DNA of 64,000 nucleotides from Dendrophyllia cribrosa (lineage: Eukaryota; Cnidaria; Anthozoa; Scleractinia; Dendrophylliidae): assembly GCA_024195265.1 (NCBI GenBank), contig JAJLRJ010000005.1, forward strand, positions 47,316,894 to 47,380,893. Reading direction: 5' to 3'. This document shows positions 6,325 through 26,733 of this stretch, piece after piece (the first letter of the stretch is position 1; each line of letters starts with the position of its first letter). The notes below the pieces were generated by a model. It was not told the DNA's origin. It did not search any database and was given only the letters and a program-made list of their open reading frames with translations. A program made the position numbers and the translations under genes.

Positions 6325-6506
6325 AGTAGTTAAGGACTTGGCGGTACCAGATCAGTTTTGCAAGACTGATCTGATACCAAGCCAAGTCTTAACTACTTCC
6401 CATCTGTTGGATTAAAAAATATAGAAAAATCAAATGAAACTATATGTTAATAAAAACAAAGTGCGTTTATTTCATTGCGTGACACAATTCTCGGAAACAC
6501 AGGAAG
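6325..6506 (+). repeat. Polinton left TIR (182 bp)
   Basis: Matches the inverted 22824-23035 except for about 30 bp missing around 6470-6480. The outer 73 bp (6325-6397) is itself an imperfect hairpin with arms of about 32-33 nt and an 8-nt loop (6357-6364). Confidence 0.95.
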
Positions 6507-8717: not shown

Positions 8718-10778
8718 TTATGGTGCTGTGTATTCGATTAATAATGAAATGTCTTGATTTTTAACCGTTTCAACCATCTCCACAGCCATATGACCGTATG
8801 GTAAATCTAAGTTTATATCTATCGTTTGTCTTTGACTTCCAGATAAATTATAGGTTGTTGTTTGAATTAATGAGAATCCATAGAGTATTTTTAAGGATAT
8901 TGTTTGGTAGGAAACATCCAAGAGATTATAGTGGCCTGTTATTTTTTTTAATTTGCTACCGTTTGGAATCATGATTTTGTCACAACCATTTAATAAAAAT
9001 GTTTTTCCACCACTTTCATTTGTTTTTAATTGCCCAAATAAGTGATGGGTTGCATTCATGATTTTGTGTGAATTCATATCAATATCGGTCTCCATCACCA
9101 TTTTGTTATTTTCATAAACAAAGGGAGAATCATAAACAGAACTTTCAACATCTGATTGAGAACCTTTAACGCCATAAATAATCAGCTTTGCTGGGCCTTG
9201 AACGACATCGTCAGCTGTCCCTCGCCATTTCAGATCCAGATAAATGAATTCAGGTGGAGAAATCTGCCATTTATGCATGTGAATAATTGACCTTGAATAC
9301 TTCACAAATTTTTTTGTTGATTGTTGATTGATATTCAGGCTGGTCGAAACCACGTCAACACTCACACCCGTCATGGAAGCGGGAAAGAATTCAATACAAA
9401 TCGTATATTCTCCTTCTGGAAGTTTTAACATGTTGAAACCAAGTCTCCCAGAGTATTCATTGAAAACATCTTTTGTTATTTTCAAATCATACGCCTTCTT
9501 TAAGTTATTGAAATGATGTGGAGAACTTGAAAAATCAGTTATTCCAGTCACTGTTATATTATGTTCAGAGCTGGATTCATCCACATCCTCCATCAAATAC
9601 CGGAATTCATCCTTCAAGTGGGAGGTTGACGATATATGCGATTCATTGACATATTTTTTGAGTTCAGCTTCTGTTTTGATCAGTTCCTCTGCCAGAGCTA
9701 CTGTCTTGTTATTTAGCTGTGTGTCAACATATTGTTTTGATGTTGCTTCATTAGATGTTTTTGGATCGGGAAGACCGATGATTTTCTCCGATCCCATATC
9801 AAGAGTACCAGTCATTGTTCCACCTGATAAAGAAAGCCTTTTGTCTGCTTCATCATCTACATATCCTTTATTCACAGCATGATCAACTGCTGTTGGATCT
9901 TTTACATTGAAAATTGTATTATTATTCATATCCAAACCAGTCTCCATTGATAACATCTCTTTACGACTAACAAAAATGTTTTTGACGTCATTATAAGATA
10001 CAAGATTGTTATAACTTGCTGCTAAATCTATGTAAGTCTGTTGTTTTGACTTGACGATATTGTAAAGTTCTTTCAAATCAATATTTGATGTAATATTTTG
10101 AGTATGTGGAATAGTATTTATTTTTGTATCAACATATTCTTTAGTGGTTGAATCTTTATTATTCGTGGGGGGTTGTAAATTTATGATCTTCTTATTTTTA
10201 GCATCATAATGTTGACCATCATAGTTCATGAAATGTACCTTTCCATGATAAAAAGGAAAAGCATCGTTATCACCAGCTGCTTGTATATTTAATATAGTAT
10301 GATAATTAGCATCCATGTGATCAGTTAATACTATTCTTTCATTTTTCATATATGCATCGGTAATGTGAGCTTTCTCATCAACCTTATTCTTGAGAGTTAT
10401 CATGTTAACAGCTGATAAATCGTCGTTTTCATCAGTGTCCATGTTCGTGATTAATTTTCTATCCATATTTATCTCACCGGGTAAAATTAGTTTATGTCCC
10501 CTCAAATCAAGATCTCCAGTCATATGAGATGATCCGTCAACCTGAAGAGAATCAGCCCTCAGTTGAATCAGTTTGTTTTCCAAACTTGTTCCAAGCGTGT
10601 CAACCTGATGCTTTGTAATCACGTCGTTATTGTTAATAGCTTCTGCAACATTTGTTAATCTTTTATTTTGAATATCATAATTTCCGTCATCTGTTAATAC
10701 AAATCCGACACCAGGTAATCCACGTTGAGGATTATTATTAAATGTTGATTCAGGTAAACGTCCGTTTGAGTAACTCAT
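8718..10778 (-). CDS. Fibre-like protein with phage-tail-type repeats
   Basis: 686 aa. At least five diverged units have the pattern 'LDM...KI..L..P...(D/N)A..K.YVD': about 35-65, 88-135, 190-225, 285-312 and 318-355. GGTMTGTLDMGSEKIIGL is the clearest. A short sixth, DIDMNSHKIMNA, lies near 590. This is the repeat style of trimeric bacteriophage tail-fibre and collar proteins. The C-terminal half has no such repeats and looks like beta-rich globular heads. A surface fibre or receptor-binding spike of the virion is the likely role (inference). It sits between the ATPase and membrane-protein genes, all minus strand, with gaps of about 22 bp. The start is preceded by an AT run. Confidence 0.65.
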   Translation of the reverse strand: MSYSNGRLPESTFNNNPQRGLPGVGFVLTDDGNYDIQNKRLTNVAEAINNNDVITKHQVDTLGTSLENKLIQLRADSLQVDGSSHMTGDLDLRGHKLILPGEINMDRKLITNMDTDENDDLSAVNMITLKNKVDEKAHITDAYMKNERIVLTDHMDANYHTILNIQAAGDNDAFPFYHGKVHFMNYDGQHYDAKNKKIINLQPPTNNKDSTTKEYVDTKINTIPHTQNITSNIDLKELYNIVKSKQQTYIDLAASYNNLVSYNDVKNIFVSRKEMLSMETGLDMNNNTIFNVKDPTAVDHAVNKGYVDDEADKRLSLSGGTMTGTLDMGSEKIIGLPDPKTSNEATSKQYVDTQLNNKTVALAEELIKTEAELKKYVNESHISSTSHLKDEFRYLMEDVDESSSEHNITVTGITDFSSSPHHFNNLKKAYDLKITKDVFNEYSGRLGFNMLKLPEGEYTICIEFFPASMTGVSVDVVSTSLNINQQSTKKFVKYSRSIIHMHKWQISPPEFIYLDLKWRGTADDVVQGPAKLIIYGVKGSQSDVESSVYDSPFVYENNKMVMETDIDMNSHKIMNATHHLFGQLKTNESGGKTFLLNGCDKIMIPNGSKLKKITGHYNLLDVSYQTISLKILYGFSLIQTTTYNLSGSQRQTIDINLDLPYGHMAVEMVETVKNQDISLLIEYTAP

Positions 10779-10800
10779 ATATATATATAACTAAATTATA

Positions 10801-11571: not shown

Positions 11572-12585
11572 ATGAGTTTACTTAAATGGAAAGAACTTGC
11601 AAAGAGTAAATCTCTATTAGGTAATAAGATTAATCTTGTACATGATGCAATCACAAAACATAATCTTAGTCATAAGATAAGTCAAGAGTCATTGGCTAAG
11701 GTATTCAAACCTGTGACTAGTAAATTAGATGATGTTATCGACAGTAATGTAGATTTAAGGGTACCCATAAGAAAGAAAAGAGCACCTAAAAAAGCTGATC
11801 AAGGTATTGATTATATGCCTGAAGTTGACCCTTTCGAAGACATGCAAGTTGATGATTTATTTGGTGATTATGTCCCACCAAATCAAAATAAACAAATTGT
11901 ACCTAAACCACCTACTTATGAAGAATCTTTACAAGATCTTATGGAAGGAAATAAGAATATTTATGTTGATCCTGAATACTTTGTTAATCAACCAGATGAT
12001 TTACCGCCAGAATATGAAGAAGAAGAGATGGACTATGGATTAGATGATGAAGATATAAGTAATGAGATTTTGAATGATATTGGTATTACGGATTATGAAA
12101 ATGTGGAAATGAGGTTAAATCAACCAGAAATGACACATGAAAAGACTAAGGCCTATCTTAATAAGATTATAAAAAATGCTAAAGCAAAAAGAAGTCAATT
12201 AGGTGGATTTAAGTCACATGTTACAAAACAGTTCAAAAGTGGGGCTATATCAGAAGCTGAGAGACAAATGCGAAACAAAAGAATAGACAATGCAAGACTT
12301 ACATTGAATGAATACATAAAACATTATGAGACTAAACTGCAAACAATGAAAGGTTCCGGAATCAACGGCCGAGGAAGAAAACAGAGAGGTGGAAATATTA
12401 TGTTTTTTAATGATGTAAAGCAGCTTCTCAAAAAATTGGAGTTGGTAATTGGTGAAAGATTAGCAGGGAATACCAGCATTGAGATGAGGAATATGGGAGT
12501 AACTATACTAGACACATTATTGAAAATGTCGAAAATCAATAGGTCACAATATAGTAAATTGTATAGTCAATATTTCAAAATATAA
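11572..12585 (+). CDS. Virion-associated protein with PPxY late-domain motifs
   Basis: 337 aa. The N-terminus is basic/helical. A proline- and acid-rich middle carries two PPxY motifs, PPTY at 113-116 and PPEY at 145-148. A Lys/Arg-rich segment follows (about 195-240), then MKGSG at 259-263, which fits the adenain-type cleavage consensus (M/I/L)-x-G-x|G, and a C-terminal helical domain. PPxY motifs recruit Nedd4-type ubiquitin ligases in many viruses, and adenovirus protein VI uses one. I do not have a firm family name, so a minor virion or core protein is inferred. It opens the plus-strand capsid gene cluster. Confidence 0.6.
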   Translation: MSLLKWKELAKSKSLLGNKINLVHDAITKHNLSHKISQESLAKVFKPVTSKLDDVIDSNVDLRVPIRKKRAPKKADQGIDYMPEVDPFEDMQVDDLFGDYVPPNQNKQIVPKPPTYEESLQDLMEGNKNIYVDPEYFVNQPDDLPPEYEEEEMDYGLDDEDISNEILNDIGITDYENVEMRLNQPEMTHEKTKAYLNKIIKNAKAKRSQLGGFKSHVTKQFKSGAISEAERQMRNKRIDNARLTLNEYIKHYETKLQTMKGSGINGRGRKQRGGNIMFFNDVKQLLKKLELVIGERLAGNTSIEMRNMGVTILDTLLKMSKINRSQYSKLYSQYFKI

Positions 12586-15192: not shown

Positions 15193-16008
15193 ATGACTCA
15201 GCTTTTTGAAATCAAAGTAAATTTGTCTGACAATCAAAAGAAGAATCTTAGCAATGCTTTCAAAAAAAGGGAAACTATTGTTCTCAGACTATCAAATAAA
15301 TCTCTTCATGGCAATGACGTTTTATATGTATCATCGATGGTGAAGAAGAGATTGGAGAAGAATCGTATGATGAATAAGGGTATGGATATCAAACTTGTTA
15401 AAAGTAATATCAGAAAACAGGTTGGAGGTAGTCTACTAACTTCTATCTTAAGTATTGGAAAAACACTAGCACCTACTATAGGCAAAACCCTTGGGCTATC
15501 AGCTCTTGCTGGATTGGCTTCAGAAGGTGCTTCTCAGATTGTGAAATCAATATCTGGCAAAGGCGTACAGTCGGGTGGTTTTCTCGTACCACAAGACAAA
15601 ATTAATAAGCTGATAGAATATAAGCATCTTTTATCTGCGAAACAAAAACAGGATATATTGAATGCCCTTCAATCAGGTTCAGGTGTTCATGTGAAACCAA
15701 CAAAAACACAATCAGGTGGATTTTTAGGCACTCTGTTGGCAAGCATTGGTGTTCCACTCCTTCTAAATGCTTTGACTGGTAAAACTGGTAGTGGGGCTCC
15801 ACGAATGGGAACTAGTAAGAAAAAAGGGGGTAAGGGAGCTCCGAGAATTGGAATTTATAGACCACCTCCATTTATAGGTTCATGGGATAATCCAATTGGT
15901 ATGGGTATTAAAAAAAAAACTACCAAAAAAAACAAGTCGGGAGAAGGCATACTATTAGGGAAAAACAGCCCATTCAATGGCATCCCACTACTAGGGGCAA
16001 TACTGTAA
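15193..16008 (+). CDS. Adenovirus pX-like virion core protein
   Basis: 271 aa. A charged N-terminal part is followed by a Gly/Ala/Ser/Leu-rich hydrophobic segment (about 78-120, GGSLLTSILSIGKTLAPTIG) resembling the adenovirus pX (mu) and Polinton core proteins. A second hydrophobic stretch lies at about 174-195, then a basic GAPR..KKGGKGAPR region and a C-terminus NSPFNGIPLLGAIL. ISGKG (120-124) fits the adenain-type cleavage consensus. Near the 3' end are two A-runs (15910-15919 and 15925-15932). The last 75 nt also read in the -1 frame, which continues into the protease with no stop. Confidence 0.7.
   Translation: MTQLFEIKVNLSDNQKKNLSNAFKKRETIVLRLSNKSLHGNDVLYVSSMVKKRLEKNRMMNKGMDIKLVKSNIRKQVGGSLLTSILSIGKTLAPTIGKTLGLSALAGLASEGASQIVKSISGKGVQSGGFLVPQDKINKLIEYKHLLSAKQKQDILNALQSGSGVHVKPTKTQSGGFLGTLLASIGVPLLLNALTGKTGSGAPRMGTSKKKGGKGAPRIGIYRPPPFIGSWDNPIGMGIKKKTTKKNKSGEGILLGKNSPFNGIPLLGAIL
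15910..15933 (+). promoter_or_regulatory. Candidate -1 ribosomal frameshift site, core protein to protease
   Basis: In the core-protein frame the sequence reads A_AAA_AAA (15912-15918) and then A_AAA_AAC (15927-15933), both canonical slippery heptamers. The -1 frame has a stop (TAA, 15909-15911) immediately upstream and is then open through the protease to 16466. I found no convincing downstream pseudoknot, only short GC-rich stems. Polymerase slippage on the 10-A run is an alternative. Confidence 0.5.
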
Positions 16009-16466
16009 AACCAAAATTCCATAAAGATATCCCGTTAAGTAATCATGATCTAATAAAATGGTGTAGATATTTGAACATCCCAATCAAAGATGTTCTGTCA
16101 AGGGATGAAAGAGTTTCACATAACCATAGACAGGCGTTATTTATCTACAATCTTGAACCCTCATATATGAGTGGAAGCCATTGGGTGGCCACATATGTCA
16201 AAGACAACGTAATAAATTATTTTGACAGTTTTGGTATGCCCCCATTTCAGGAGATTGTAAATCATGCTAAAAGAAAGAATATGACTCTGTTACATCAAAA
16301 CAACCAAATCCAGAACATAAAAACGACTACATGTGGTTACTTCTGTTTATACTTTCTGAATGAAATGAATAAAGGGAATTCATATTACAATCTATTGGAA
16401 GTGTTCGACATATATGACACAATGAAGAATGAGAGATTCCTGGAAAATTATTTTAGAAATATCTAA
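15933..16466 (+). CDS. Adenain-like cysteine protease, no ATG start
   Basis: The conserved part starts near 16029 (PLSNHDLIKWCRY) and ends at 16466. Catalytic residues of the C5/Ulp1-like fold are visible: His in SGSHWVA, Asp in YFDSFGMPP and Cys in TTTCGYFCLYFL. Such proteases mature the capsid in adenoviruses and Polintons. The first ATG in frame lies inside the SHW region, too late for a working enzyme. The open frame extends upstream, overlapping the core-protein gene in -1 register, to a stop at 15909. Expression could be by -1 frameshifting at the A-runs, by a non-ATG start, or the original ATG may have been lost by mutation. The start given is the first codon after a slip at 15927-15933. 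Confidence 0.75.
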   Translation, partial: QVGRRHTIREKQPIQWHPTTRGNTVKPKFHKDIPLSNHDLIKWCRYLNIPIKDVLSRDERVSHNHRQALFIYNLEPSYMSGSHWVATYVKDNVINYFDSFGMPPFQEIVNHAKRKNMTLLHQNNQIQNIKTTTCGYFCLYFLNEMNKGNSYYNLLEVFDIYDTMKNERFLENYFRNI

Positions 16467-16479
16467 CTTATATATATAA

Positions 16480-16638
16480 ATGATGAAAAGTTATTGTGTA
16501 AAGCAGAAGAAAGTCACTGAATGTGTACCAGGAAGCGAACGATATGTGAAAACTAAAAATGGTCGAACTATGTTGAAATGCACTTGCGCTGAATGTGGAA
16601 TTACTAAATCTCGTTTTGTTAAGAACCAGGGAAACTAA
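16480..16638 (+). CDS. 52-aa Cys-rich protein, DUF5679-like
   Basis: A small ORF directly after a TATATATAAATG motif. It has YC near the N-terminus (C6), then VKTKNGRTMLK and CTCAECG (C34, C36, C39). The layout resembles the tiny zinc-binding DUF5679-type proteins of adintoviruses and large DNA viruses. The usual second Cys of the first pair appears replaced (Gln9), so metal binding may be altered. The stop overlaps the next start (TAATG), implying coupled translation or a compact late transcript. Function unknown. Confidence 0.6.
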   Translation: MMKSYCVKQKKVTECVPGSERYVKTKNGRTMLKCTCAECGITKSRFVKNQGN

Positions 16639-17264
16639 TGGAGCCCTCACAAGATGGGGGCTTTTTAAATATAGAAGGTAGTCACAGTCTTGGTGAAATA
16701 GCAGCTAAAAGCGCTTTAAAAGGTTTGTATAATTTAGGTAGAATCGGAGCATCAAAGGCAATTAAATCTGGTTATGCTAAACAAAAAATAAAAGGAATGG
16801 CTGATAAATATTTGGATCAAGCCTTAGATAGTTTAACTTCAGATATTAGTAAGAAACTAGATCCATTGCATAAAGGTAGTGGGATTGATATTCATAAGGC
16901 CATTGGGAAGCTTCCGAAACCAAAAGGCGGTTGGACATTACCCGGCCATAAATATACTGGCCCATATAATAATTTAAAGAGTCAAGTGAAATATGACCCA
17001 ACAACTGGCCAAATATTAGAAATATATGACCAACCTATAGGAAGAACTGATGAAATAGCAATGCAACATGATGTCGATTATTCAGTCTGCAATGATGATA
17101 GGAAATGTAAAAATAAGGCAGACCGAAAAATGGTTCAAGCTTTAGACAACGTACCGTATAATGAAAGACAATGGGGGCATTGGTTGGCTAGAAACACGAT
17201 TGATGTAAAACAAAAACTTGGATTAGGTGTTAAAAGGAAGTCAAAAAACGTAAAAAGGAGTTGA
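16638..17264 (+). CDS. Phospholipase A2-domain virion protein
   Basis: 208 aa. The N-terminus is helical with a Gly-rich stretch. From about residue 95 there is a parvovirus VP1-type PLA2 signature: Ca2+-loop-like YTGPYNNL (106-113), catalytic His-Asp in MQHDVDYS (H144, D145, Y148), and a downstream Asp in KNKADRKMV (162). Viral PLA2 domains help virions escape endosomes, so this is likely an entry protein inside the capsid. Its 3' end contains a slippery heptamer, and the integrase lies in the -1 frame from here. The start overlaps the upstream stop. Confidence 0.8.
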   Translation: MEPSQDGGFLNIEGSHSLGEIAAKSALKGLYNLGRIGASKAIKSGYAKQKIKGMADKYLDQALDSLTSDISKKLDPLHKGSGIDIHKAIGKLPKPKGGWTLPGHKYTGPYNNLKSQVKYDPTTGQILEIYDQPIGRTDEIAMQHDVDYSVCNDDRKCKNKADRKMVQALDNVPYNERQWGHWLARNTIDVKQKLGLGVKRKSKNVKRS

Positions 17265-17312
17265 GTAATGATTGGGCTGAACTCCTTGCAAATGAACTAC
17301 ATAAACCAATCA
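17243..17312 (+). promoter_or_regulatory. Predicted -1 frameshift signal: A_AAA_AAC plus pseudoknot
   Basis: In the PLA2 frame 17243-17249 reads A_AAA_AAC. After a 5-nt spacer, 17255-17262 (AAGGAGTT) pairs perfectly with 17280-17287 (AACTCCTT). The loop segment 17269-17275 (TGATTGG) pairs perfectly with 17306-17312 (CCAATCA). That gives an H-type pseudoknot with stems of 8 and 7 bp. The PLA2 stop is at 17262-17264 and the -1 frame stop is at 17231-17233, so the shift window is only 31 nt. Confidence 0.75.
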
Positions 17313-18205
17313 AACGGAAATTTCAAAAGAGACGTGTTATTGTTAATGGAATAGATGATATTTGGAGCGCTGACCTTGTAGAAATGCAGAAGTTTTCAAA
17401 ATGGAATAAAGGATATAGATATTTGTTAAATATCATTGATGTGTTTTCAAAATTTGCTTGGAGCATTCCCATTAAAAATAAAACCGGTAATACAATTACT
17501 GAATCATTTGATGATGTTATTAAAAAGTATAAAAGAAAACCTAAATTTATTTGGGTAGACCAAGGGTCTGAATTCTATAATAAAACTTTCAAAGACTGGC
17601 TAAAGAAAAATAATATTGAGATGTATTCCACTCTCAATGAAGGTAAAGCTGTTATTATTGAGAGATTTAACAGAACATTAAAATCTAAAATGTGGAAACA
17701 ATTCACAGCTCAAAATACAACACAATATTTAGACATGTTACCAAAACTATTAAATGAATACAACAGTACAAAGCATTCAAGCATCAAAATGAAACCTATT
17801 GAAGCATCTATGAAAAAGAATGAAGGAACTGTTTATTTCAATCTATATGATACGGAACTATTATCATATAAACCAAAATTTAAAGTTGGTGATAAGGTTA
17901 GAATTTCAAAGTATAAACGGAATGTGTTCGACAAGGGTTATACACCAAACTGGACTGAAGAAGTGTTTACAGTCGATAAGATACAATACACAAACCCTAT
18001 TACATATAAGTTAAAGGATCTTAATAATGAATCAATAGAAGGGTCATTTTATGAACCTGAATTACAATTAGCAAAACAGGATGTATTCAGAATTGGCAAA
18101 GTCATTAGGAGGGATTACAATAAAAAACAAGCTTTGGTATCATGGTCTGGTTATCCAAAAGAATTTAATTCATGGATACCGTTAAAAGATGTCAAAAATA
18201 TATAA
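17249..18205 (+). CDS. Retroviral-type (DDE) integrase with chromodomain
   Basis: Numbered from the TTG at 17261, the rve-type core has D38 (WSADLVEM), D100 (WVDQGSEF) and E134 (VIIERFNRT). An SH3-like segment follows near 205-225 (KPKFKVGDKVRISK), and a C-terminal chromodomain from about 276 (FRIGKVIRRDY...VSWSGYP...SWIP). It catalyses Polinton insertion and explains the 6-bp target duplications. There is no ATG before the first catalytic Asp. The frame is open back to 17234, overlapping the PLA2 gene in -1 register across a slippery heptamer and pseudoknot. The start given is the first codon after the proposed slip. Confidence 0.92.
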   Translation, partial: RKKELSNDWAELLANELHKPIKRKFQKRRVIVNGIDDIWSADLVEMQKFSKWNKGYRYLLNIIDVFSKFAWSIPIKNKTGNTITESFDDVIKKYKRKPKFIWVDQGSEFYNKTFKDWLKKNNIEMYSTLNEGKAVIIERFNRTLKSKMWKQFTAQNTTQYLDMLPKLLNEYNSTKHSSIKMKPIEASMKKNEGTVYFNLYDTELLSYKPKFKVGDKVRISKYKRNVFDKGYTPNWTEEVFTVDKIQYTNPITYKLKDLNNESIEGSFYEPELQLAKQDVFRIGKVIRRDYNKKQALVSWSGYPKEFNSWIPLKDVKNI

Positions 18206-18938: not shown

Positions 18939-18983
18939 CCAACTGAATACATATAAAGAATTATCTATACTATAGTATATAAA

Positions 18984-20030
18984 ATGAACAAGATCGATCT
19001 TGAGAAACTTAGTAAATCAGAACTAATCAAATTGCTTTTAAAGCAACAGAAGAAAAAGCCTGAAATTATCATCGTAGATGATACCAAACCAGTTCCAACA
19101 CCAAGGAGGCCTATTCCAACACCTCGCAAGAGTGTAAAACCAAACCAATCACCAAGACAAACAGTAAAAGAATTGGTTGACTATTTTGAGAGGAAAAGAT
19201 TACCACCCCCACCTTCTGAATGGTTAGAAGAAATAGAACAATTAAAAAAGACACCAATTCCTACACCAAGGACTAAAAAAACAGTTAAACCTGTACCAGC
19301 TCCAAGGACTAAGATAGAGCAAACAAACAAAGCTCTAAAAGGTTATACTAAATCCTTCGAAATTACATTAAAGAATAATAAAGACCCTTTAACACAATTA
19401 CAACAAACAAGAAAAGGTATTGAAAACCATTTTAAAACCCTACTAAGTGATACAAAAGGAATTAAATTTGTTGAAACACTAAAGGTCACATTTGAGAAAC
19501 TAGCTGGTGATGAAATAGTGCCTAAGACTGCATATTTTAACAGTGTGGCTCAGACGATTATTAACCACATAGAAATCGCTGAAGCGTTACAATTGTCTAA
19601 ACAACAGATATTAAATAGTGTAGCTCAATGGATTTCTGAGGGTTCTGGATGGACAATAAGATCTATTGACAACCACTATATTAATATTGTTAAATACGAA
19701 CCATTAAAGGGATCATCTTACATTCAATTACCTTCAGAACTAAGAAATAGTGCTAAGGGATTGATAAACATGAAAAATAAAGACAATGAGTGTTTTAGAT
19801 GGTGTCATATAAGGTACTTGAACCCTCAAGACAAATATCCACAGAGAATCAAAAAAGTCGACAAAGATTTTATTGAAAAATTAGATTACTCTGGAATTCA
19901 ATTCCCAGTGACTGTCAAACTGTATAATAAAATAGAAAAACAAAATAAATCAATATCAATGTATTCGGTTATGAGGAAAAGCAACCATATCCTATCTATG
20001 TATCCAAAGAAAAGTACGAAGATCATATGA
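18984..20030 (+). CDS. DNA polymerase B, N-terminal part (separated by a frame break)
   Basis: 348 aa. It begins MNKIDLEKLSKSELIKLLLK (a short SAP-like helix pair), followed by a proline-rich linker with four P-x-P-x-P-R blocks (PVPTPRRPIPTPR, PIPTPR, PVPAPR). A conserved region (about 110-310) follows, with SEGSGWTI and CFRWCHIRYLNPQ. In the Polinton polymerases I know, this region is fused to the exonuclease and polymerase domains. Here the last ~27 codons are out of register: from 19949 the conserved sequence continues in the -1 frame into the next ORF. An A missing near 19943-19949 would explain it. The terminal protein that primes replication may lie in such N-terminal regions (inference). 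Confidence 0.75.
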   Translation: MNKIDLEKLSKSELIKLLLKQQKKKPEIIIVDDTKPVPTPRRPIPTPRKSVKPNQSPRQTVKELVDYFERKRLPPPPSEWLEEIEQLKKTPIPTPRTKKTVKPVPAPRTKIEQTNKALKGYTKSFEITLKNNKDPLTQLQQTRKGIENHFKTLLSDTKGIKFVETLKVTFEKLAGDEIVPKTAYFNSVAQTIINHIEIAEALQLSKQQILNSVAQWISEGSGWTIRSIDNHYINIVKYEPLKGSSYIQLPSELRNSAKGLINMKNKDNECFRWCHIRYLNPQDKYPQRIKKVDKDFIEKLDYSGIQFPVTVKLYNKIEKQNKSISMYSVMRKSNHILSMYPKKSTKII

Positions 20031-22786
20031 ACTTGTTATTGATCACAGAAAACGAAAACAAACATTATGTATTAATAAAAGACTTCAATAAATTCATGTA
20101 CAATCAGACGAAACACGAACACAGAAAACATTTTTGCATGCATTGTCTACAATGCTTCAGTTCTGAAACAATCCTTAATAATCATAAAGAAAACTGTATT
20201 GTAATTAATGGTAAACAAGCTGTAAAAATGCCTGAAAAAGATAATAACATATTAAAATTTAACAATTATCATAAACAGTTAGCTGTTCCATTTGTAATCT
20301 ATGCTGATTTTGAGGCTATTACAGAAAAAGTACAAGGATGTCAACCAAACAATGATAAATCATATACTGAATCATATCAAAAACATAAAGACTGTGGATA
20401 TGGATACAAAGTTGTCTGTTGCTATGATGATAAATACAGTAAACCAGTTCAGGTCTATAGAGGCGAAAGAGCTGTATACAAATTCATGGAAGCTATGCTG
20501 GAGGAAGTTAAATATTGTAAGAAGGTTATGAAAAAAGAATTCAATAAACCATTAAGAATGACCAAAGACGATGAAGAAGAATTCCAAAAAGCTGATAAAT
20601 GCCACATATGCGAGAAAGAATATAACAAAACCGATCTAAGAGTAAGAGATCACTGTCATATCACTGGTCAGTACAGAGGATCCGCTCATCAAGATTGTAA
20701 TTTAAAACTCAGAATAAAACCAGAAGAAATTAAAATACCTGTGATATTCCATAATCTCCGTGGGTATGACTCTCATTTCATCATGCAAGAGATTGGTGAA
20801 ATAGTCAAGAAGCATACATATACAAATAAAAAAGGTGAAAAATGTCAAATGAATATCAATGCAATTCCGAATAATATGGAAAAGTATATGGCTTTCATGT
20901 TGGGTAATCACTTAACCTTTCTCGATAGTTTCCAATTCATGAGCTCGGGTTTGGAAAAACTAGTGAGTAATCTACCAAGAAAATCATTAAAATATACCTC
21001 TCAAAAATTCAAAGGTAAAAAGCTTGATCTGATGGCTAGAAAAGGAGTGTATCCATATGACTTCATGGATAGCTTTGAAAAGTTCAATGAAAAACTGCCA
21101 TCAAAAGAAGAATTTTACAGCATATTGAATGATGAACATATATCAAATGAAGATTACAAACATGCTCAAAATGTGTGGAATACCTTCAATCTTCAAAATA
21201 TGGGTGAATACCATAATTTATATCTTAAATCTGATATCCTTTTGCTAGCTGATGTGTTTGAAAACTTTAGAAAGACCTGTCTAGAATACTACAAATTAGA
21301 TCCATGTCATTATTTCACATCTCCAGGTTTGTCTTGGGATGCTATGCTTAAAATGACTGATATCAAATTAGAACTTATAACTGATATTGACATGTTTCAA
21401 TTTATCGAAAAAGGAATGCGTGGTGGAATAAGCTACATTGCCAATAGGTATGGTAAAGCAAACAATAAATGCATGAAAACATATGATGAGAAGGTGCCCT
21501 CAAAGTATATAATGTATCTGGATGCTAACAATCTATATGGTTGGGCTATGTCACAATACCTACCTACTGGCGGTTTTAGATGGATGACACAAAAACAGAT
21601 CGATAAGATAGACCTAGCCAAGTATAAAGAAGATAGTGAGAAGGGTTTGATACTGGAAGTAGATTTAGAGTATCCTGAAGGGTTACACAATCTTCATAAT
21701 GACTACCCGCTAGGGCCGGAAAAGGTTAAAGTAACTGAGAGTATGTTGTCTGGGTATTGTAAAAACATCGCGAAGAAATATAAAATATCAACTGGTTTAG
21801 TTCATAAATTGATACCAACCTTGAAGAACAAAGAAAAATACGTGCTCCATTATAGGAACCTTCAATTATACACTGATCTTGGTTTGAAAATAACTAAAGT
21901 CCATCGAGTACTAGAGTTTGATCAATCTCCTTGGTTAAAACAGTATATCGACTTTAATACAGAAAAAAGGAAGAACGCAAAAAATGCTTTTGAAAAAGAC
22001 TTCTTTAAACTTATGAATAACTCTGTATTTGGTAAAACGATGGAAAATATTAGAAAGCGAGTAGATGTAAGACTAATCACCGATGAAAAAAAACTATTGA
22101 AATATGCCAGTAAACCAACGTATGTTAGTAGTAAGATCTTCAACGAAAATCTAGTAGCTGTGCATAAGATCAAAGAAACACTTACCCTAAACAGGCCGGC
22201 ATATGTGGGTATGTGCATCTTAGATTTAAGCAAGACATTAATGTATGATTTCCATTATAACTACATTAAAAAGAAATATGAAGACAAAGCCAAGTTACTC
22301 TTCACAGACACAGACAGCTTGACCTATGAAATCGAAGCTGAAGATGTATACCAAGACTTTTGGAATGATAAAAATAAATTCGATAACAGTGACTACCCTG
22401 AAAGCTCACCGTATTTTGATAAGACAAATAAAAAAGTTATTGGCAAATTCAAAGATGAAGCCACAGGAGTTCCTATTTGTGAATTCATCGGTCTACGATC
22501 TAAAATGTATAGTTACACGAAAGACAACCAAAAAGGAGGAAAGACTGCCAAGGGAATCAAAAAGAATATTATCAAAAATAATATCAAGCATCAAGATTAT
22601 AAAGAAACGTTATTAGGAAATAAACAGATGCATCATACAATGAAAACAATCCGAAGCAATAACCATCAATTAGGAAGTTATGAAATCAATAAAGTATCAC
22701 TCAGCTGTTTCGATGACAAAAGATATATACTGGAAGATGGTATAAATTCATATGCTTATGGACATTATAAAATGAAAAAGAATTAA
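20027..22786 (+). CDS. Protein-primed-type DNA polymerase B
   Basis: 919 aa from the ATG at 20027, which overlaps the stop of the N-terminal ORF (ATGA). Domains in order: C2H2-like finger (C37, C40, H53, C57); ExoI DFEA (D94, E96); a Cys/His insertion resembling endonuclease VII-type HNH (CHICEKEYN at 192, RDHCHITG, HQDCN); ExoII FHNLRGYDSH; ExoIII YLKSDILLLADV; polymerase motif A YLDANNLYG (D499); motif B NNSVFGKT (664-671); motif C TDTDS (760-764). All catalytic acids are present. Length and motifs match Polinton PolB, which replicates the linear element. The conserved N-terminal segment lies upstream in a different frame, so the full protein needs reinitiation, frameshifting or an undamaged copy. 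Confidence 0.95.
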   Translation: MNLLLITENENKHYVLIKDFNKFMYNQTKHEHRKHFCMHCLQCFSSETILNNHKENCIVINGKQAVKMPEKDNNILKFNNYHKQLAVPFVIYADFEAITEKVQGCQPNNDKSYTESYQKHKDCGYGYKVVCCYDDKYSKPVQVYRGERAVYKFMEAMLEEVKYCKKVMKKEFNKPLRMTKDDEEEFQKADKCHICEKEYNKTDLRVRDHCHITGQYRGSAHQDCNLKLRIKPEEIKIPVIFHNLRGYDSHFIMQEIGEIVKKHTYTNKKGEKCQMNINAIPNNMEKYMAFMLGNHLTFLDSFQFMSSGLEKLVSNLPRKSLKYTSQKFKGKKLDLMARKGVYPYDFMDSFEKFNEKLPSKEEFYSILNDEHISNEDYKHAQNVWNTFNLQNMGEYHNLYLKSDILLLADVFENFRKTCLEYYKLDPCHYFTSPGLSWDAMLKMTDIKLELITDIDMFQFIEKGMRGGISYIANRYGKANNKCMKTYDEKVPSKYIMYLDANNLYGWAMSQYLPTGGFRWMTQKQIDKIDLAKYKEDSEKGLILEVDLEYPEGLHNLHNDYPLGPEKVKVTESMLSGYCKNIAKKYKISTGLVHKLIPTLKNKEKYVLHYRNLQLYTDLGLKITKVHRVLEFDQSPWLKQYIDFNTEKRKNAKNAFEKDFFKLMNNSVFGKTMENIRKRVDVRLITDEKKLLKYASKPTYVSSKIFNENLVAVHKIKETLTLNRPAYVGMCILDLSKTLMYDFHYNYIKKKYEDKAKLLFTDTDSLTYEIEAEDVYQDFWNDKNKFDNSDYPESSPYFDKTNKKVIGKFKDEATGVPICEFIGLRSKMYSYTKDNQKGGKTAKGIKKNIIKNNIKHQDYKETLLGNKQMHHTMKTIRSNNHQLGSYEINKVSLSCFDDKRYILEDGINSYAYGHYKMKKN

Positions 22787-22823: not shown

Positions 22824-23035
22824 CTTCCTGTGTTTCCGAGAATTGTGTCACGCAAAGGATTCTATTATGTGGAATCACGCAATGGAATAAACGCATCATT
22901 TTGTTTTTATTAACATATAGTTTCATTTGATTTTTCTATATTTTTTAATCCAACAGATGGGAAGTAGTTAAGACTTGGCTTGGTATCAGATCAGTCTTGC
23001 AAAACTGATCTGGTACCGCCAAGTCCTTAACTACT
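22824..23035 (-). repeat. Polinton right TIR (212 bp)
   Basis: Inverted copy of the left TIR. It carries an extra block of about 30 bp (near 22855-22885) that repeats a TTGCGTGA motif. The outer 73 bp (22963-23035) forms the same hairpin as the left end. Confidence 0.95.
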
Positions 23036-24843: not shown

Positions 24844-24942
24844 GCTTCAGTCCAGTGAAAAAACGAACGAACCTACAAGGGAAAATAGATAGCGTGTCTA
24901 GCGTGCTACTAGTACAAAGACTGGTGCATAAAAAGCCGGCAC

Positions 24943-26733
24943 ATGCACGTTATGAGAGCAACCTGTTTCCAAAGAGTCATCGACAATTATGACGCATTGT
25001 TAAAGATATGGAATGATTGCCTTGAAACAAGACTAATATCAGATGTTCGTGGTAGAATTGTTGGATGCCAAGCACAGATGAAAAAGTTTGACTTTTTCTT
25101 TGTATTAAATCTGAGTCAGAGGATTTTCTCCCATACAGACAATCTATCAGAGACCTTACAGAAAGCCGGCATGTCAGCCACCAGTGGACCACACAATGCC
25201 AAACTGACGAAGGATGCCCTCAAGAAGATTAGAAATGATGCCTGTTTTGCAACTTTTTATCAAACAGTGCTGCGCAAAAAGCAGCTTCATACTTCTATCA
25301 CGGAGCCTGAAGTACCAAGAGACAAAAGAGCTCCTAGGAGATTCGAGGTTGGAACTGGAACGCCTTCGTTTCCTGTGACTCCTGAGCAAGTATATCGAAG
25401 AATTTACTTTGAAGCACTAGATTTGATAGTGTCGTCCATTGAAGAACGTTTTGATCAGCCTAGTTTCAAAGCATATGCAAATATGGAGTCTCTTCTGATA
25501 GGTGTTTTGAACTCGCAAGACGTATCCTCACAAATGGACTTCATGACAGAAAATTATGCTGACGATGTAAGAACGTATAACTAGTGTATCCAAAAGATAG
25601 TAATTGCTGCGGTAAATTTGTTGTAATAATGCTGTTTTATCGCCTCGCTGGTATTACAAAATTTTCTCTTTCGTTTTTTGAGGGAAAGCAAAGCAAATGT
25701 AACCGGGATGAATCGACGAAAACTCCAGCTGATAAGACTAATTTTGTTTTGTAATTCACGCATCAAGTTCTTGCAATGTCTGTAGAATATTGTTGAGCAA
25801 AGGACGCGTTCACCACGAGGAAGGTGTGAAAATTTAGGTTTAACTTAATTATTGATAATGAATATATGTTGCGTTACTAGCTAGCCGTATCGTGTTCGCG
25901 TCTCCACGCGCTCAGCTCAGGTTTCGCGTCCCCACGCGCTCAGCTCAGTCTCATCGACCGCTGTCGGAGTGATTTCAAAATAAATTTGTCTTTTATTCTG
26001 TACAATCTTCGAAAATCTTTGCTATCCAACGGTCCTATCACCATGCCTCACAGTCCTCGCTCAACTCGCGGTAGTCTTCGACACTTCAGTTCCGATTACG
26101 ACTGGTACATGTTGGACCAAAATATTACAAATCTCGCAGCCAACAGCTTGAAGCAGCAAGCGAGGCTATTGTTCGTGGCGCAGTGAATTCTGGCCCAAAA
26201 TGTGTGCGTGGCGCAGTGAATTCTGGTAAAAAGCGATCAAATCGAGATTTTTCGTAGCTTATATTTTTTTCTCATATATTTCTCTTAAATCCTGATTATG
26301 TTGCTGCTCACTCGCTACGCTCGTTCCGCAGCAATTAACTGGATATCTGTTTTCCCAACTCGAAATTTTGAAAGTTTTGATCAAGGATGAACAGATTAAT
26401 TGCTTTGCCGATGTTATGAAAGCGGTTAAGAGTCTTGCTGATCATGAGAGACACATGATATGTGAGGTTATTGTAATTTGTAAACTCCTGTTGGTGAATC
26501 CTGCAACAAGTGCTACAGGTGAAAGGTCGTTCTCCATGGCAAGGAGAGTGAAAACGTGGTTGCGTGCGAACATGAACCAACAACGTTTTAATAATGTGGC
26601 TTTATTGCATACCCACAAGGCAAGAACAGATAAAATTCGGCTTCTAGATGTAGCGAATGAATTTGTCCAACGAAATGAAAACCGTTTTCGCAACTTTGGT
26701 AAATTTACTGATTTAGATTTGTCAATGTGCTAA
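24943..26733 (+). pseudogene. hAT transposase (ZMYM1-like), interrupted
   Basis: Two collinear pieces. 24943-25584 (213 aa) carries the central region typical of ZMYM1/TTF-type hAT transposases (AQMKKFDFFFVLNLSQRIF, then PRDKRAPRRFEVGTG). About 26341-26733 holds the C-terminal hAT dimerisation domain (NPATSATGERSFSMARR, then KTWLRAN). Between them lie about 750 bp of unrelated, non-coding DNA (about 25585-26336). There is no N-terminal zinc finger or full catalytic frame, so the copy is inactive. Strand and order are consistent with one ancestral gene. Confidence 0.75.
25601..26337. mobile_element. Insertion splitting the hAT gene
   Basis: Bounded by a 12-bp inverted pair (TAATTGCTGCGG at 25601-25612 and its complement at 26326-26337). 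It contains a short direct duplication (CACGCGCTCAGCTCAG near 25905 and 25935) and a duplicated GGCGCAGTGAATTCTGG. No ORF of note. The target duplication is uncertain (TAACT occurs on both sides), so the exact ends are tentative. Confidence 0.4.

Follow-up and report, generated by a model that had tools for sequence, protein, structure and literature searches.

A conserved -1 frameshift arrangement between PLA2 and integrase in diverged Polinton families of one genome

Retroviruses express gag-pro-pol by -1 frameshifting, MMTV being an example with two shifts, and the bacterial IS3 family makes its OrfA-OrfB transposase by frameshifting at an A-rich -1 site. Many frameshift sites employ plain stems downstream of the slippery sequence. 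Polintons are regarded as standing near the point from which many eukaryotic DNA viruses arose, and they may form infectious particles. For vertebrate Mavericks, a passage in PMC8097293 lists the integrase among separate genes. For adintoviruses, a section of PMC11071296 suggests slippery sites in Penton and Hexon-Adenain and proposes -1 shifts from KnotInFrame; these sites belong to the same class of elements but to other genes, and that section contains no PLA2 or integrase frameshift. Searches of the full-text literature on Polinton/Maverick/adintovirus elements and on programmed frameshifting in eukaryotic DNA transposons returned no description of a PLA2-integrase frameshift, in agreement with an earlier note on this DNA, which knew of none; a paper on adintoviruses by Starrett and colleagues may mention one.

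The locus described here resembles retroviral gag-pro-pol in having an X_XXY_YYZ heptamer, a short spacer, and an RNA structure predicted to follow, with the integrase coming last in the extended product, and it resembles MMTV in possibly having two tandem shifts. Unlike retroviruses, the Polinton is a dsDNA element that encodes a DNA polymerase itself, the upstream protein is DUF5679/PLA2 and not Gag, and the frameshift is a prediction. As in IS3 OrfA-OrfB, an A-rich -1 slippery site joins a small upstream ORF to a startless DDE/rve ORF; however, the element is a eukaryotic Polinton, and the upstream ORF is a phospholipase rather than the DNA-binding OrfA. With Polinton/Maverick elements and adintoviruses it shares an rve core with a chromodomain, AGTAGT terminal inverted repeats, a 6-bp duplication, PolB, an A32-like ATPase, and, less certainly, an adenain-like protease, but its integrase is predicted to become fused to PLA2 through a shift of frame.

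The window, that is, the whole 64,000-nucleotide stretch of DNA analyzed, contains a 16.7-kb Polinton bounded by 139-bp terminal inverted repeats (99% complementary) and a 6-bp target-site duplication (Table 1). The termini read AGTAGT...ACTACT, with GACTCA on both flanks. The plus-strand gene order is a pVI-like ORF (assigned by eye), protease, DUF5679, PLA2, integrase, and PolB. Pfam searches identified a family B DNA polymerase (PF03175, E 7.4e-19), its frame broken in the window copy, and an A32-like packaging ATPase (PF04665, E 1.5e-12), whereas the adenain-like protease gave a weak match below the cut-off (PF00770, E 0.02). One of the two ORFs into which PolB is split (18957-20030) had no match in the Pfam search. 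The terminal repeats with the 6-bp duplication, the combination of PolB with an rve integrase, and the packaging ATPase identify the element as a Polinton/Maverick; adintoviruses are defined, in a passage of PMC11071296, by a PolB with an OTU-like N-terminus and a recognizable Hexon. On the minus strand, an ORF at 8718-10790 matched the T7 tail-fiber N-terminus (PF03906, E 1.1e-8) and possibly encodes a receptor-binding protein. Separate ORFs at 24913-26733, which only by eye resemble a broken hAT-type transposase, adjoin a 19-bp minisatellite starting at about 27198.

Table 1. Coordinates of the Polinton features in the window
Feature	Position	Strand	Details
Left terminal inverted repeat	6325..6463	+	First letters AGTAGT; GACTCA (6-bp target-site duplication) directly before
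DUF5679 (zinc-ribbon-like) ORF	16480..16638	+	Pfam PF18930 E 8e-7, above cut-off; stop TAA 16636-16638
Candidate slippery heptamer 1, G_GGA_AAC	16629..16635	+	Abuts DUF5679 stop TAA (16636-16638); PLA2 at -1
PLA2 ORF, 208 aa	16638..17264	+	Pfam PF08398 E 8.6e-9; stop TGA 17262-17264
Predicted 7-bp stem, 6 nt past heptamer 1	16642..16662	+	16642-16648 with 16656-16662
Integrase ORF (rve core + chromodomain)	17234..18205	+	Pfam PF00665 E 5.9e-14; PF00385 E 1.2e-4, below cut-off
Slippery heptamer 2, A_AAA_AAC, PLA2 phase	17243..17249	+	Codons TCA AAA AAC
Predicted 8-bp stem-loop, spacer 5 nt	17255..17287	+	17255-17262 (AAGGAGTT) with 17280-17287 (AACTCCTT), perfect
Possible pseudoknot stem 2, weakly supported	17269..17312	+	17269-17275 (TGATTGG) with 17306-17312 (CCAATCA), 7 bp
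PolB, split by frame change in window copy	18957-20030 and 19949-22786		Frame of 945 aa
Right terminal inverted repeat	22897..23035	-	99% complementary to left repeat; GACTCA directly after

In the window copy, the PLA2 and integrase frames overlap by about 30 nt. The earlier note had placed the heptamer A_AAA_AAC in PLA2 phase with the integrase exactly at -1, open upstream only to 17234 and with no ATG preceding the first catalytic Asp. Every coordinate was correct; the first Met of the integrase frame comes only after that Asp. The PLA2 C-terminus reads ...KRKSKNVKRS*, the frame ending 12 nt past the heptamer. Over the listed ORFs of the element, canonical heptamers stand in phase at 21 of 4486 codon positions, and the chance within a 10-codon overlap is about 4.6% for any in-phase canonical heptamer and 0.7% for AAAAAAC. 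Because of the 4.6% estimate, one junction copy alone is weak evidence, and it is conservation across copies, not the single site, that carries the case.

Conservation was examined in the genome (627 Mb, 22 contigs). Among the best 124 of 2918 candidates scored in the integrase search, open frames measured 321-326 aa in 123, and the remaining copy was fused in frame (527 aa). Junctions were grouped by junction sequence into families that we label A to E, all from one genome. A genome-wide search for the family A junction, in which the flanks were held constant and could enclose 4-8 bases of any kind, found 168 places, compared with none for the control pattern read backwards. AAAAAAC was present exactly in 167 of them, the exception being the in-frame copy L031; these are not 167 independent cases, because most copies are near-identical. 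The flanks of families C and D were found at 37 places, 36 with six bases between them and one with five, as judged by length. A total of 104 distinct places was read, corresponding to 109 loci minus five duplicates (L057, L058, L072, L074, and L075) and leaving out L110, which had no integrase match; family A contributed 66, B 14, C 14, D 8, and E 2. AAAAAAC stood in the integrase phase at 103 of the 104, the integrase was at -1 to PLA2 in 99, and the full arrangement, comprising AAAAAAC, the -1 relation, and a PLA2 frame open through the heptamer, was found in 96. As for the exceptions, PLA2 and integrase are in frame in L031 and L109 and in another phase in L065 and L096; a PLA2 stop lies just 5' of the heptamer in L020 (which also has an upstream frame change) and L094, and far upstream in L039 and L049. 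Where the PLA2 frame passes the heptamer, its stop follows after 12 nt in families A, B, and E, 24 nt in D (0 in L105), and 39 nt in C. The PLA2 of family B members is only 63-87% identical to that of the window copy, so the shared heptamer is not only the result of recent copying; across the five families the codons around the heptamer differ, as does PLA2 itself. The -1 frameshift arrangement between PLA2 and integrase is conserved in diverged families of this genome, and our literature searches found none described; the earlier note had proposed checking such junctions for conservation, and within this genome the heptamer and phase held up.

The 167 identical 40-nt junctions indicate recent amplification of the family. 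In ungapped comparison with the window copy, 13 of 16 plus-strand loci diverged by no more than 1.3%, two by 5%, and one by 19%. The L095 junction looks recombinant, being of B type upstream and C type downstream. No DNA relatives from other species were found in the viral and genome contig collections searched.

At nearly all the places read, a canonical X_XXY_YYZ heptamer in zero-frame phase precedes the end of PLA2, and the downstream ORF overlaps it at -1 without an AUG of its own, except in ten of the 14 family C copies and possibly in L103. We consider it probable, at roughly 0.8, that the integrase is made as a C-terminal extension of PLA2 by programmed -1 ribosomal frameshifting at A_AAA_AAC. 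Most ribosomes would stop and yield PLA2 alone, and the smaller share slipping on the tandem Lys-Asn codons would produce PLA2-integrase-chromodomain, with the RNA stem that starts 5 nt downstream predicted to stimulate the slip. The unequal yield would keep the integrase scarce and tie it to PLA2. The PLA2 of parvoviruses belongs to a virion protein, according to a passage in PMC4642659; because of this, the fusion could speculatively carry the integrase into particles. The description of the product as a capsid-protein fusion in the earlier note went too far, since PLA2 here is a separate protein whose virion role rests on the analogy with parvoviral VP1.

We also considered that the integrase might be translated alone, from a non-AUG codon, by internal entry, or from a separate transcript, the overlap with PLA2 being mere gene packing. 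Several features would fit this improbable reading: the integrase frame contains an ATG 5' of the core in ten of the 14 family C copies, a TTG stands just before the conserved SNDW/SKNDW stretch in families A, B, and E, and the gene models of many listed homologs begin with a Met at the TTG position. The earlier note had named an ATG-started integrase in relatives as an observation that would speak against frameshifting; such an ATG does exist in family C, but it sits inside the PLA2 domain and is a by-product of the QWGH codons. No ATG was present upstream of the catalytic core in the copies read of families A, B, and E, except for the in-frame L031, nor in seven of the eight D copies; in the eighth, L103, the integrase frame continues past the edge of the fetched stretch and may include an ATG. 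Independent translation would moreover leave unexplained the fixed in-phase heptamer with its stems, as well as relatives that encode DUF5679-PLA2-integrase in a single ORF.

The RNA following the heptamer was analyzed for structure. The 5-nt spacer and the perfect 8-bp stem proposed in the earlier note are present in the window copy. In a folding scan of 16400-18160, the 45-nt stretch at 17250 had the lowest z (-4.7) of 176, and the next-lowest values fell at 16630 and 16620, at the upstream DUF5679-PLA2 junction. The family A stem gave p 0.016 by dinucleotide shuffling, 0.005 by synonymous shuffling, and 0.013 by codon-usage resampling; for family E the values were 0.019 (dinucleotide) and 0.023 (synonymous). 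Family C has a long-range stem of 14 bp with a 7-nt spacer and a loop of about 50 nt, equaled in 0 of 1000 dinucleotide shuffles and with synonymous p of 0.004-0.007 in three representatives; L091 reached only p 0.07-0.16. The family D stem comprises 12 bp with a 7-nt spacer (codon-usage p 0 to 0.001, synonymous p 0.026-0.04) and was tested in a 99-nt window, 90 nt being too short for this family. Family B failed the synonymous test in all four representatives (p 0.12-0.83) and the dinucleotide test in two of the four (p 0.51 in L035 and 0.58 in L061; its stem begins 10 nt past the heptamer, outside the tested range of 4-9), compared with 0.009 in L051 and 0.011 in L063. When the whole stretch was folded and set against synonymous shuffles, z was -1.65 in A (95-nt stretch), -0.35 to -1.70 in B, 0.09 in E, -1.65 to -3.88 in C, and -2.50 to -2.64 in D, so that outside C and D this signal is modest or nil. 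Taken family by family, these predictions support a downstream stem in A, C, D, and E and are weak in B.

For families C and D, covariation could be assessed in 14 distinct haplotypes from 22 copies over a 12-pair helix (168 cells). In this helix, 98.8% of the cells were paired, compared with 30-55% when the partners were slid, and the covariation value was 0.234 versus 0.174 in shuffles (sd 0.018; 0/500 as high). Seven cells were changed on both sides, a number reached in 0/500 shuffles; one position reads C-G, U-A, and U.G, and another A-U, G-C, and G.U. The number of pairs changed on both sides was two, which is not above the shuffles in this C/D set. Because of this, and because two families represent few independent events, the covariation supports the helix without proving it. 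Stems 5-9 nt downstream were found with compensatory change in C/D and at significant levels in A and E. A pseudoknot, called textbook in the earlier note, is possible in A but weak: the 7-bp loop pairing is present in the window copy, with p 0.03 in family A by codon-usage resampling (synonymous shuffling, at p 1.0, cannot judge it), but the second stem is absent from C and D, where a long-range stem takes its place. We reject the pseudoknot as a generally conserved stimulator. A single helix common to all families was likewise rejected, since the pairings differ and are not homologous between A/B/E and C/D.

According to another explanation, PLA2-integrase is truly one in-frame gene, and the -1 copies arose by a one-base indel, through mutation or assembly error, in an A-run. 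This is very unlikely, even though copies L031 and L109 are in frame and 36 among the 120 listed integrase homologs are fused in frame, a departure from the arrangement in the window. The junction has one length in 167/168 A and 36/37 C/D cases, and its phase is common to five families. At the 53 loci where both could be read, two A-runs of the pVI-like/protease overlap, which are themselves coding and hence no neutral control, varied in length (9-11 in one and 7-10 in the other), whereas the junction run was 6 in 53/53. The in-frame homologs join at differing A-runs, as read from their protein letters, and hold about 200 of the approximately 3,900 member sequences in the 120 listed rows (summed by hand). 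Nor is the PolB damage of the window copy general: PolB frames measured 1044-1280 aa in 45 of 47 other scored copies, a few with internal stops, and in the remaining two (924 and 957 aa) the frame breaks off close to where it does in the window. This damage is limited to few copies, whereas nearly all copies keep the integrase at -1 to PLA2, and on run length and the PolB comparison an in-frame ancestral gene with indels was rejected. Equally unlikely is a fusion made by RNA polymerase slippage or by splicing instead of by the ribosome: the A6 run could be a slippage site and GT follows the heptamer in A, but GT is not kept in B (GG) or D (GG; TG in L105), which rules out a conserved splice donor, and neither process explains the stems with their spacer of 5-7 nt.

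Homologs from other genomes bear on the frameshift reading at the protein level. The integrase search listed 120 of 7713 matches, fusions longer than 565 aa being outside its range. PLA2 was recognized in the same frame in 33 of the 36 fusions by rule and in three (P0046, P0070, and P0116) by the PLA2 domain. Two listed homologs, P0030 and P0041, are single ORFs with the order DUF5679-PLA2-rve-chromo; since some relatives encode it as one ORF, the DUF5679-PLA2-integrase fusion is a natural product. In P0109, named as the integrase of a Trichoplax MELD virus, DUF5679 directly precedes rve (E 3e-5, below the Pfam cut-off), and Oculina patagonica supplies one listed homolog, P0110. For PLA2, 120 of 2148 homologs were listed. 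Tails of the form KN[VGIET][KTRE], the zero-frame reading of family C DNA, occur in 41 of these, and 45 of the other 79 form a second lineage with KKKTPKI/KKKRPKF tails, which, going by the protein letters, would fit A_AAA_AAA. The frameshift arrangement is thereby hinted at in relatives from other genomes.

If the main reading is true, an integrase fused to a predicted virion enzyme would have a concrete route into the particle, and a DNA-replicating element would have come convergently to a retroviral expression strategy. It would also correct annotation, as homologous gene models split or mis-start the integrase.

A candidate second site, absent from the earlier note, lies at the DUF5679-PLA2 junction, where an in-phase G_GGA_AAC precedes a -1 overlap; a second, less certain slip there would put DUF5679 in front of PLA2. 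Among 75 distinct loci, PLA2 was at -1 with a heptamer abutting the DUF5679 stop in the form GGGAAAC (60), TTTAAAC (6), or TTTAAAA (1). The other eight were at -1 without a canonical heptamer (2), at +1 (3), in frame (2), or without the region (1). Family C had TTTAAAA in L111 and TTTAAAC in L112, both at -1, and L114 of family E was at +1 without a heptamer; L113 gave no reading of this junction. The sequences that are predicted to pair here, AGCCCTC/GGGGGCT in family A but GCCAGTC/GGCTGGC in families B/C, are unrelated, yet both yield a 7-bp stem after the same 6-nt spacer, with p 0.009-0.048 (dinucleotide) and 0.012-0.029 (synonymous) in six representatives. The first ATG of the PLA2 frame is at residue 1 in 7 loci, -15 in 52, 5 in 9, only 54 or 141 in 4, and -52 in two in-frame copies. 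Since start codons are available, reinitiation or leaky scanning would serve PLA2 too, and the data suggest a second frameshift at G_GGA_AAC as an uncertain candidate. More tentatively, we can envisage tandem -1 shifts in Polintons of this lineage, at G_GGA_AAC (T_TTA_AAC/A in other families) and then at A_AAA_AAC, and possibly a third one that leads into the protease. They would give a graded series of DUF5679, DUF5679-PLA2, and DUF5679-PLA2-integrase-chromodomain in the manner of a Gag-Pro-Pol polyprotein, which the element's own adenain-like protease might cut at Q-x-GG-F, loading the integrase into particles fused to a membrane-penetration enzyme.

The protease ORF itself overlaps the pVI-like ORF (15912-16008) and has no ATG until just 5' of its presumed catalytic His; the overlap of the window copy holds in-phase AAAAAAA and AAAAAAC. 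Judged at the overlap, 69 of 75 distinct loci have the protease at -1 relative to the pVI-like C-terminus and two have it in frame, while four were not assessable. Because upstream A-runs vary, some copies have a pVI-like ORF whose body and end lie in different frames. Motifs of the form Q-x-GG-F occur as QDGGF just past the first heptamer (16623-16700, PLA2 frame), QSGGF twice in the pVI-like ORF (15196-16008), and QLGGF in the ORF at 11572-12585; speculatively, they are cleavage sites for the element's own protease.
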